A stretch of 64,000 nucleotides of DNA from an uncultured Clostridia bacterium (GTDB taxonomy: Bacteria; Bacillota; Clostridia; Oscillospirales; Ruminococcaceae), in assembly GCA_947625615.1 (NCBI GenBank), contig CANQPB010000001.1, positions 81,669 through 145,668 on the forward strand. Direction: 5' to 3'. Position numbers and translations under genes: made by a program. Below the pieces are notes generated by a model. The model saw nothing but the letters and a program-made list of their open reading frames with translations. It was not told the DNA's origin and did not search any database. This document shows positions 33,098 to 54,619 of this stretch, in pieces (position 1 is the stretch's first letter; the number at the start of each line of letters is the position of its first letter).

Positions 33098-33272
33098 AAC
33101 CCGGAGCAAAACTTCTGACAGAACAGGCGGCGCGGAAAATTCGCGCCGCTTTTTTCGGGGATCTGTCGAAAGGCCTCGGATCGGCTCAAAAAAATCTCCG
33201 GAAATTTTAAAAAAAGGCTTGACATTCCCGCCCGATTGTGGTAATATAGCACCGTTGCGAAAAAACACCGAT

Positions 33273-33348
33273 GCCGGTGTAGCTCAGTTGGTAGAGCAGC
33301 TGATTTGTAATCAGCAGGTCGGGGGTTCGAGTCCGTCCACCGGCTCCA
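33273..33348 (+). tRNA. tRNA-Thr (anticodon TGT)
   Basis: Cloverleaf GCCGGTG..CACCGGC-TCCA, anticodon loop TTTGTAA, T-loop GGTTCGAGTCC; upstream TTGACA-17-TAATAT. Confidence 0.95.
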
Positions 33349-33364
33349 CCAAAAAATTAAATAT

Positions 33365-33449
33365 GGGAGAGTTCCCGAGTGGCCAAAGGGGGCAGACTGT
33401 AAATCTGTTGCGCTATGCTTCGATGGTTCAAATCCATCCTCTCCCACCA
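33365..33449 (+). tRNA. tRNA-Tyr (anticodon GTA)
   Basis: GGGAGAG..CTCTCCC-ACCA, anticodon loop CTGTAAA, long variable arm. Confidence 0.95.
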
Positions 33450-33881
33450 GTAAAAAGCACCTGCAAGGGTGCTTTTTTGTTGGTGGGACAAGGGTGTCTG
33501 CGAACTATTACCAAAGCGCTGTTGTAAAAACGCACAAATGCGCGATTTGTAAAAAGCCTTCAAAACGGCGGAGATTTATTGCCCTGCCGCGCTTTGGGCT
33601 CAAGTGCGAGCGCCTTGGCGCGAAGCACTTGGAGCGAATGGTTACAAATCCATCCTCTCCCACCAGTAAAAAGCACCTGCAAGGGTGCTTTTTTGTTGGT
33701 GGGACAAGGGTGTCTGCGAACTATTACCAAAGCGCTGTTGTAAAAACGCACAAATGCGCGATTTGTAAAAAGCCTTCAAAACGGCGGAGATTTATTGCCC
33801 TGCCGCGCTTTGGGCTCAAGTGCGAGCGCCTTGGCGCGAAGCACTTGGAGCGAATGGTTACAAATCCATCCTCTCCCACCA
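33450..33881 (+). repeat. Exact 216-bp tandem repeat x2, each unit ending in a copy of the tRNA-Tyr 3' end
   Basis: 33450-33665 and 33666-33881 read identically; both end CAAATCCATCCTCTCCCACCA, as the tRNA does at 33449. Confidence 0.97.
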
Positions 33882-33969
33882 AAAAAAGAACACCCTCATG
33901 GGTGTTCTTTTTTTGGTAAATGGCGGTACAGCGGCGCTTAAATTCTCAAAGCAATCTGCCCTTTTCCTC

Positions 33970-35163
33970 TCACTCGCACCCCATGTCTCTCGCGATGTCG
34001 GCGAGGATCTTTATCCCCCTGACGATCTCCTCGTCGGTCGGCATGGAGTAGTTCAGCCTGAAGGAGCGGCTCGGCTCGGCGGGGTCGGCGGTGAAGGCGG
34101 TGCCGGGGACGACGAATACATTCTTTTCGCCGGCGCGCTTCACGAATTCGTCGAGGCTCTTGCCCTCGGGCAGGCTGCACCAGAGGAAGATGCCTCCCTC
34201 GGGGCGGGTGAAGCTTACGCTTGCGGGCATGTTCTCCTCGAGGGCCGATATCATCAGCCCCGCCTTGTGGCGATACATGTTTCGGATCCCCGCTATGTGA
34301 GCCTCAAGGTCGCATTCGCTGAGGTACTTCGCGCAGACCATCTGGAAGAACACGTTTGTATGAACGTCCTCGACCTGCTTCGCGACGACTATCTTTGAGA
34401 GAATATCTCTGTTCGCGCAGAGGAATCCTATTCTCATGCCGGAGGAGAGCACCTTCGAAAAGCTCCCGCAGTAGATCACCCTGCCGTCGCGATCCATGCT
34501 CTTATATGTCGGGACGTCCTCGCCCGAAAAGCGCAGGTCGCCGTAGGGATTGTCCTCCAAAATAAGTATGTCATACTTTTCGGCGAGGGCCAAAACGGCC
34601 TTTCTCGTTTCAAAGTCGGCGGTTATGCCGGCGGGATTCTGAAACGTGGGTATGGTGTATAAAAATTTCACCTTGGGGTCGGATTTGAGCACTTCTTCAA
34701 GCTTTTCGGGATCTATGCCCCTGTCGGTCAGCGGGACGCCCCTGAGATTTGCCCCGAGCGAGCGGAACGCGTTGAGCGCGCCTATAAAGCTCGGGTTTTC
34801 GCAGACGACGGTATCTCCCTCGTTGCACATAACCTTGCAGGTCAGCTCAATTCCCTGCTGCCCGCCGGTGACAATTATAAGGTCGTCGTCCGGCGCGCCG
34901 ATGTTGTAGACCCTTTTTAAGCGGTCGGCGACAAGCTTTCTCAGCGGGGTATAGCCCTCGGTGATGCCGTATTGCAGGGCGGTGACGGGATCGCTCGAAA
35001 AGATCTCGTCGGCAAAGCGGCGCATGTCCGCAACCGGGAAAGAATCGGGATTCGGGTTTCCGGCAGCAAAGGATATCGAGCCGGGGGTGCCGAGGCTCTT
35101 GAAGATCTCGCGGATCGCCGACGGCTTTAAGCTTACAAATTTGTCGGATATTCTGTAATTCAT
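33970..35163 (-). CDS. PLP-dependent aminotransferase, class I/II
   Basis: SFAAGNPNPDSFPV, TGGQQGIELTCKV, NPYGDLRFSGE, YCGSFSKVLSSGMRIGF. Confidence 0.93.
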   Translation of the reverse strand: MNYRISDKFVSLKPSAIREIFKSLGTPGSISFAAGNPNPDSFPVADMRRFADEIFSSDPVTALQYGITEGYTPLRKLVADRLKRVYNIGAPDDDLIIVTGGQQGIELTCKVMCNEGDTVVCENPSFIGALNAFRSLGANLRGVPLTDRGIDPEKLEEVLKSDPKVKFLYTIPTFQNPAGITADFETRKAVLALAEKYDILILEDNPYGDLRFSGEDVPTYKSMDRDGRVIYCGSFSKVLSSGMRIGFLCANRDILSKIVVAKQVEDVHTNVFFQMVCAKYLSECDLEAHIAGIRNMYRHKAGLMISALEENMPASVSFTRPEGGIFLWCSLPEGKSLDEFVKRAGEKNVFVVPGTAFTADPAEPSRSFRLNYSMPTDEEIVRGIKILADIARDMGCE

Positions 35164-36691: not shown

Positions 36692-36955
36692 AAAAGTTTT
36701 CGCCGGCCTTTTTTAAAAGGCCGCGGGGGTCTACTGCAAGCTGGTTTTGTTTCTGCTCGACTGCCCTCGGCGACAATGATTGCCTCGGTTGTCTTGCAGA
36801 CAAAACCCCGCGTGCATTGGGGCGGCGCCCTCGTCGCGCTCCGCAGAGCGCGAAATCCTATGCTTCGCGCGCTCCGCAAGGGGTGAATTGTCAAAACAGT
36901 CCGGTGGACTGTTTTGACAAGAGGGGCCGCCCTGCAAGAGAGGGCGGCCCCTTAT
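36692..36955 (+). repeat. Hairpin-mosaic repeat, copy D
   Basis: AAAAGTTTTCGCCGGCCTTTTTTAAAAGGCCG...AAAACAGTCCGGTGGACTGTTTT...GGGGCCGCCCTGCAAGAGAGGGCGGCCCC. Confidence 0.85.
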
Positions 36956-54137: not shown

Positions 54138-54214
54138 CGAGGTGTGGCTCAGTTTGGTAGAGCGCCACGTTCGGGACGTGGAGGCCGTGGGTTCGAATCC
54201 CGTCACCTCGACCA
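54138..54214 (+). tRNA. tRNA-Pro (anticodon CGG)
   Basis: CGAGGTG..CACCTCG-ACCA, anticodon loop TTCGGGA; upstream TTGACA-17-TATTAT. Confidence 0.94.
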
Positions 54215-54619
54215 AACAATCCCCGGTAGTCCTTTGGACTACCGGGGATTGTTTTACAACGCGGTAACGCGCGGTTTCGTAGCAAGTCTATTCAACGCTG
54301 GCTGACCTGCGAAACAATTTAACTCTACGATAGTATAGAGAAACCGCTTGGCTCAAAATCCCCGCAGGGGATTTTGAGCGTCGTCACACGAGACCAAATA
54401 CCGCCTCATAACATATCGCTCTGGGCTGTCGATGGGTATTTTACTGCGCGGTAACGCGCGGTTTCGCCCTATCTTTACCGCCTCTCGGAAATCTCTCCGA
54501 GAAACCGCCATGGCTCAAGATAAGCGATTATTTCTCCGCAAGCACGAGCGGTCGGTCATTTATGACCGCGAAGTGCGAGCGGCAAGAAATAACGCCTATC
54601 GAGACGTCACACGAGACAA
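54215..54619 (+). repeat. Two degenerate structured repeat units downstream of tRNA-Pro
   Basis: TTTTAC(AA/TG)CGCGGTAACGCGCGGTTTCG at 54253 and 54440; GAGAAACCGC..GGCTCAA; each ends CGTCACACGAGAC(C)AA, resembling the tRNA end CGTCACCTCGACCAA. Confidence 0.75.

Follow-up and report, generated by a model that had tools for sequence, protein, structure and literature searches.

rtT-like units behind clostridial tRNA and tmRNA genes carry sense and antisense arms matched to the local tRNA

The closest described counterpart of the repeats considered here is rtT of E. coli (RttR, tyrT/tyrV, RF00391), where tandem structured units stand behind tRNA-Tyr and the tRNA 3' end is copied at the end of each. 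In strain K-12 the tRNA-Tyr gene is followed by an arm, GGGGAAGGATGAGAAGCTTCGA, to be compared with the tRNA complement GGGGAAGGATTCGAACCTTCGA, by a structured core and by a 19-nt copy of the tRNA end; the rtT locus scores 137 bits against the RF00391 covariance model. The unit is present in 4,696 of 5,426 complete E. coli genomes, at 1 to 9 places per genome, and strain CB209 carries four of them in tandem. A second point of reference is provided by the tRNA/tmRNA genomic islands, in which a displaced copy running from the T-loop to CCA lies downstream of an intact tRNA gene and whose definition (Islander) includes an integrase (PMC4383910). A third is template switching during replication, a process that creates and repairs perfect stems (PMC8794818).

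The window, i.e. the whole stretch of 64,000 nucleotides that was analysed, lies on contig C1 of the draft genome of an uncultured gut clostridium (G000; 2.17 Mb, 58 contigs); one of its proteins is 79-83% identical to proteins of uncultured Clostridia MAGs and 73% identical to Candidatus Faeciplasma. It holds two arrays behind tRNA genes, with the following features:

33219-33247, + strand: candidate sigma-70-like promoter, from a consensus match alone, upstream of tRNA-Thr/tRNA-Tyr; the sole candidate found near the array
33273-33348, + strand: tRNA-Thr(tgt), co-oriented, upstream of tRNA-Tyr
33365-33449, + strand: tRNA-Tyr(gta), intact, CCA encoded; source of the copied 3' end
33450-33665, + strand: unit 1, 216 bp
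33666-33881, + strand: unit 2, 216 bp, identical to unit 1
33450-33479 (unit 2: 33666-33695, the same), + strand: terminator-like palindrome
33480-33511 (unit 2: 33696-33727), + strand: antisense arm (32 bp), which follows the terminator and repeats the tRNA-Tyr 3' half in inverted, degenerate form
33512-33596 (unit 2: 33728-33812), + strand: core stem P2, CAAAGCGC...GCGCTTTG (strands 33512-33519 and 33589-33596), with its interior; the P2 stem is also found in relatives
33598-33635 (unit 2: 33814-33851), + strand: core hairpin at the P3 position, where relatives have GCG-A-TTATTTC...GAAATAA-CGC
33636-33665 (unit 2: 33852-33881), + strand: T-arm and acceptor 3' strand of tRNA-Tyr repeated in sense orientation, an extra A standing before C56
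33878-33917, + strand: differing terminator palindrome after the last copy
54138-54214, + strand: tRNA-Pro(cgg), host of the second array
54215-54617, + strand: two decayed units behind tRNA-Pro with a different P2, GCGGTTTCG...GAAACCGC

The first-pass annotation had described two identical 216-bp units behind tRNA-Tyr, and the identity does extend over all 216 bp. The 21-bp terminal tRNA copy and the GGTTAC in place of GGTTC that it assigned to each unit were located in both, and the terminator palindrome, the 8-bp stem CAAAGCGC/GCGCTTTG and the hairpin are present as claimed. It overlooked the antisense arm at 33480-33511, the decayed tRNA-Pro array (54138-54617) and the differing terminator at 33878-33917, which is probably the original terminator of tRNA-Tyr. 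The tRNA end CAAATCCATCCTCTCCCACCA (21 bp) occurs three times, at 33429-33449, 33645-33665 and 33861-33881, the copy in unit 1 being exact from C56 to A76 (33645-33665), while GGTTAC stands at 33640-33645 and 33856-33861 as against GGTTC in tRNA-Tyr itself. The maximal exact repeat is 237 bp (33429-33665 = 33645-33881).

A repeat of this length in a genome of 58 contigs makes the number two uncertain, and it is conceivable that the unit is real and its exact doubling partly an artefact of assembly. This we consider very improbable: tandem units that differ in sequence stand behind tRNA-Arg in the same genome and tRNA-Pro in G019, and tandem rtT units are present in E. coli genomes of assembly level complete, so that tandem units as such are real. 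Among the relatives, tandem pairs of 99-100% identity are found at Tyr (G000), Arg (G004) and Gly (G005), and a near-identical one at Tyr in G027; the pairs at Arg, Gly and Tyr of the latter three genomes arose separately. The tRNA-Tyr unit is single in five other congeners (G005, G016, G023, G026 and G029), which bears out the suggestion that a structured unit was duplicated very recently. Unit number also varies among complete E. coli genomes. The simplest source of tandem pairs is recombination or slippage between the tRNA-end copies, and the identical tRNA-Tyr pair is an ordinary recent duplication. The surprising part is not this pair but the fit of both arms to the local tRNA, seen at different tRNAs and in different lineages.

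A search by pattern and BLAST covered 31 congeneric genomes. Similar units stand directly behind tRNA or tmRNA genes in 16 of them, and the hosts for which both unit ends were checked comprise Tyr, Arg, Leu (three isoacceptors), Pro, Val, Gly and tmRNA; at all of these the terminal sense copy matches the local tRNA. Units behind tRNA-Tyr were found in nine genomes with both ends checked, plus G027, and the units behind other tRNAs refute a confinement to tRNA-Tyr. The pattern matches L060-L067 were discarded, being coding sequence or something else that is not a unit. In L074 a unit carries a copy of tRNA-Ala, the stretch examined there containing no such tRNA gene. The common plan consists of the real tRNA 3' end (S), a terminator (T) whose stem usually takes in ACCA/TGGT, an antisense arm (A) of about 30 nt, a hairpin core (C) and the sense copy (S'). 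An extra base precedes C56 in 31/31 units and is A in 28 of them, even where the tRNA has C55 (GGTC-A-C in G026 and G029). P2 is CAAAGCGC/GCGCTTTG in most units and GCGGTTTC/GAAACCGC or GATGAAAATCGG/CCGATTTTCA in others, and in another subclade the Tyr units have other core sequences on the same plan. Directly observed are this plan, the match of both arms to the local tRNA, the placement of complete units on the 3' side of tRNA/tmRNA genes, and tandem duplication on repeated occasions.

Of the roughly 30 tRNAs of G000 itself whose flanks could be read, three have units, namely Tyr, Arg(ccg) and Pro(cgg); no further copy of the tRNA-Tyr 216-bp unit was found elsewhere in this genome. The tRNA-Arg(ccg) array (L161, C1:44000-48500) consists of two unlike units of 267 and 437 bp that have terminator and ends, not the core, in common, and the second tRNA-Pro unit retains a well-kept P3 hairpin (54503-54616, 73 bits). 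Recent dispersal within a genome was rejected as a source of the units, cores at different tRNAs of one genome being 54% identical compared with 56% for cores at the same tRNA across genomes. A simpler arrangement is found behind tRNA-Gly(ccc) of G000 (L215), where the terminator palindrome runs 10 nt into the acceptor strand, with 10 nt of exact antisense after the terminator; this is a bare sense-terminator-antisense (S-T-A) stage without a core.

The antisense arm is an inverted, degenerate version of the local tRNA's T-arm and acceptor 3' strand, with about 70% identity to the complement. Its pairing is stronger with the tRNA of its own site than with other tRNAs (permutation p 5e-5 over 20 units, which is the floor of the test; p 1e-4 without E. 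coli and without ACCA). The real tRNA is preferred over the downstream copy as a partner in 19/19 units (mean -25.6 versus -19.2 kcal/mol), and the arm is also co-adapted to the 3' sense copy of its own unit with which it would form the closing stem (p 4.5e-4). These tests permuted tRNA types, not units, and their p values do not rest on independent events because the units within a clade have a common ancestry. Own-tRNA matching gave a weaker, mixed result when tested by plain local alignment. The motif TGAGAA recurs in the antisense T-loop, and both this motif and the extra A recur as if selected, a point against the DNA-level reading preferred below.

The same layout is encountered outside the genus. 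In G348, which belongs to another family of the same order, tandem units behind tRNA-Lys (L247, on C30) have 15 nt of exact antisense and 16 nt of exact sense, and an antisense arm also lies behind tRNA-Tyr; in G078 a unit stands behind tRNA-Thr. The Lys, Tyr and Thr loci of this other family (L247, L165 and L167) have a common core, CGTCAAGAAAA-hairpin-TTTTTAG, which is unrelated to the cores of the genus. The likeness to E. coli rtT is equally one of design: tandem structured units behind tRNA-Tyr, a copy of the tRNA 3' end at the end of the unit, a 5'-side arm antisense to the tRNA 3' half with a TGAGAA motif, and a variable copy number. The core, in contrast, is unrelated, with no covariance-model match either way: RF00391 had no match in the window at the gathering threshold, in 33200-34000 at E<=5, or in the units of the relatives. 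In E. coli the copy (19 nt) joins at AATCC and has no counterpart of the GGTTAC insertion that the clostridial copies carry. The clostridial units differ further in having a terminator at the head of each and in using many tRNAs and tmRNA as hosts. Membership in a known RNA family was rejected more broadly, as Rfam at gathering and relaxed thresholds returned tRNA/tmRNA and chance matches only. Since the same plan occurs in E. coli and in a second clostridial family with unrelated cores, the plan as such recurs.

The first-pass annotation had proposed a 'tiny tRNA-targeted integrative or recombining element', of which the recombining part fits the data and the integrative part is not supported. 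In its strongest form such an element would be non-autonomous and integrate at the T-loop by means of a tyrosine recombinase supplied in trans, with the tRNA 3' end as attachment site. T-loop-to-CCA copies are indeed the classical signature of tRNA-gene islands (PMC4383910), tmRNA and many tRNAs serve as hosts, the terminator after the last copy differs from that of the units, as it would after integration of a circle, and the genome has nine integrase matches. All nine, however, lie off contig C1, where a Phage_integrase (PF00589) search had no match and hence revealed no tyrosine recombinase, and no free or viral units were encountered. Unlike genomic islands, the units are 0.2-0.5 kb long, have neither integrase nor cargo, carry a local antisense arm and persist as decayed copies. 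A duplication of an att site or target site is an inadequate explanation because the arm following the terminator is antisense to the tRNA of its own site, whichever that may be, a match that integration does not produce, and an element carrying the 3' half of one tRNA would make a chimeric tRNA at another. We therefore regard integration as unlikely; the 'att-like ends' are instead part of a recurring plan of tRNA-end copies that is found in E. coli rtT too.

Other vehicles were considered and rejected. Viral carriage was dismissed after inspection of ten viral contigs that match the short pattern: the R1 model reaches at most 19 bits there (E 0.04), the contexts contain no unit, and the Tyr-specific unit end was not found in viral contigs. 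The integron attC motif is GTTRRRY, and GGTTAC does not fit it. A Y1 (RAYT) transposase as the driver was ruled out by its absence from the six carrier genomes G000, G003, G005, G010, G021 and G023. The units resemble the RAYT-mobilised REP/BIME palindromes in that P3 is a dispersed imperfect palindrome, and differ from them in the lack of a Y1 transposase in the carrier genomes tested and in being anchored at tRNA 3' ends.

In the main clade P3 is a hairpin of 27 pairs, 18 of which have changed on both sides, and its covariation exceeds all shuffles and slides. Fourteen of the 31 genomes contain 13-95 matches to the P3 model and a fifteenth contains one; the many matches away from tRNAs mean that P3 is also a dispersed repeat. 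One such copy in the window (36735-36816, - strand, 51 bits) has no tRNA nearby and is part of the dispersed repeat family. Among 76 distinct copies 96% of the pairs are Watson-Crick, and the transition mismatches, G-U and A-C, are evenly balanced (22:20), as opposed to 36:4 in the acceptor and T stems of the tRNAs at the examined loci (Fisher p 2e-4). Selection on the RNA strand should favour G-U, and the even split points to a strand-symmetric process; for the P3 of tRNA-linked units alone the ratio is 5:3, a small count.

The opposite reading is that the units are functional trailer RNAs of the rtT kind, transcribed together with the tRNA, folded into a three-way junction closed by A:S' and trimmed, in the manner of a tRNA, to a CCA end, acting as an sRNA or as a maturation switch between tRNA:A and A:S' pairing. 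A number of observations argue for it. The 216-bp unit as RNA folds better than all 200 shuffles (z -4.9), and the tRNA-sense strand folds better than its complement in 21/28 cores (p 0.002, a test weakened by shared descent) and 22/31 whole units (p 0.001). The co-adaptation of the 5' arm to the 3' copy and the P3 covariation described above also count in its favour, the plan is kept in the Tyr units of the other subclade despite different core sequences, and in E. coli the same plan comes with an annotated RtT sRNA processed from the tyrT transcript. Mismatches in the antisense arm, moreover, lean towards the type that keeps G-U (46:25, p 0.017), although a transcription-linked mutation bias could be an alternative source of this lean. 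The strand-folding bias and the G-U lean suggest some RNA-level constraint and count against an account at the DNA level. On the other side, a strong terminator separates the tRNA from the unit and no promoter-like site was found within the 216-bp units, the G-U:A-C ratio of P3 is about 1:1, many copies are truncated or decayed, only three of about 30 tRNAs in the window's own genome have units, and P3 is dispersed away from tRNAs as well. A functional trailer RNA is the main rival to the reading given next, one that we take seriously but think less likely than not.

The reading we prefer, with moderate confidence, is that the units are rtT-like, tRNA-anchored sense-antisense-sense repeats which are kept by local recombination and template switching. 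Copy number would shift through unequal recombination or slippage between S copies, giving rise to the identical tRNA-Tyr pair. Formation and re-matching of A, S' and the stems of the core would take place largely at the DNA level, by template switching, with the terminator, the T-arm and the core hairpins as sites of the switch. Fold-back at the terminator could yield an antisense copy of the tRNA end, the bare stage of which may be seen behind tRNA-Gly(ccc) of G000, and a dedicated integrase or transposase would be unnecessary. On read-through, A could pair within the transcript with either the tRNA or S', with a putative effect. Like the inverted copies (quasipalindromes) left by template switching, the units show sense, antisense and sense segments around hairpins and paired changes without G-U intermediates; unlike such copies, they have a conserved, recurrent core between the arms, and the same core at different tRNAs. 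Template switching alone fails to explain one core family behind different tRNAs, and this is the weakest point of the account.

A broader proposition is that rtT is one case of a general class of trailers in which the 3' flank of a tRNA or tmRNA gene acts as a sense-antisense-sense switch: the arm would either open up the tRNA it belongs to or be tied up by the downstream copy, read-through would decide tRNA maturation, and the plan would have arisen independently with unrelated cores in several lineages. We put this forward as speculation and think it rather unlikely as a whole. Irrespective of mechanism, the E. coli tRNA-Tyr rtT repeats, seemingly an isolated oddity, become one example of a recurring arrangement that spans two Clostridia families and at least seven kinds of tRNA gene plus tmRNA, with locally matched arms. 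The origin of rtT thereby becomes testable as DNA template switching at tRNA 3' ends, RNA-switch selection, or both. It also follows that, where a tRNA gene is followed by a short copy of a tRNA 3' end, the copy does not by itself constitute evidence of an integrated element.

Two further kinds of repeat were observed in the vicinity of tRNA genes. Behind tRNA-Tyr of other Clostridia (L184 and L167) there are strings of small hairpins joined by GTGATAT/GTGATG, the one in L184 ending in a T-arm copy. A second, terminator-like repeat family, beginning CGCCGTCGCGGACTACGTATCG... or CGGCGTCGCAAGC..., exactly abuts the CCA of many tRNA genes or copies (loci L202, L207, L210, L211 and L213; L005, L006, L034 and L039).
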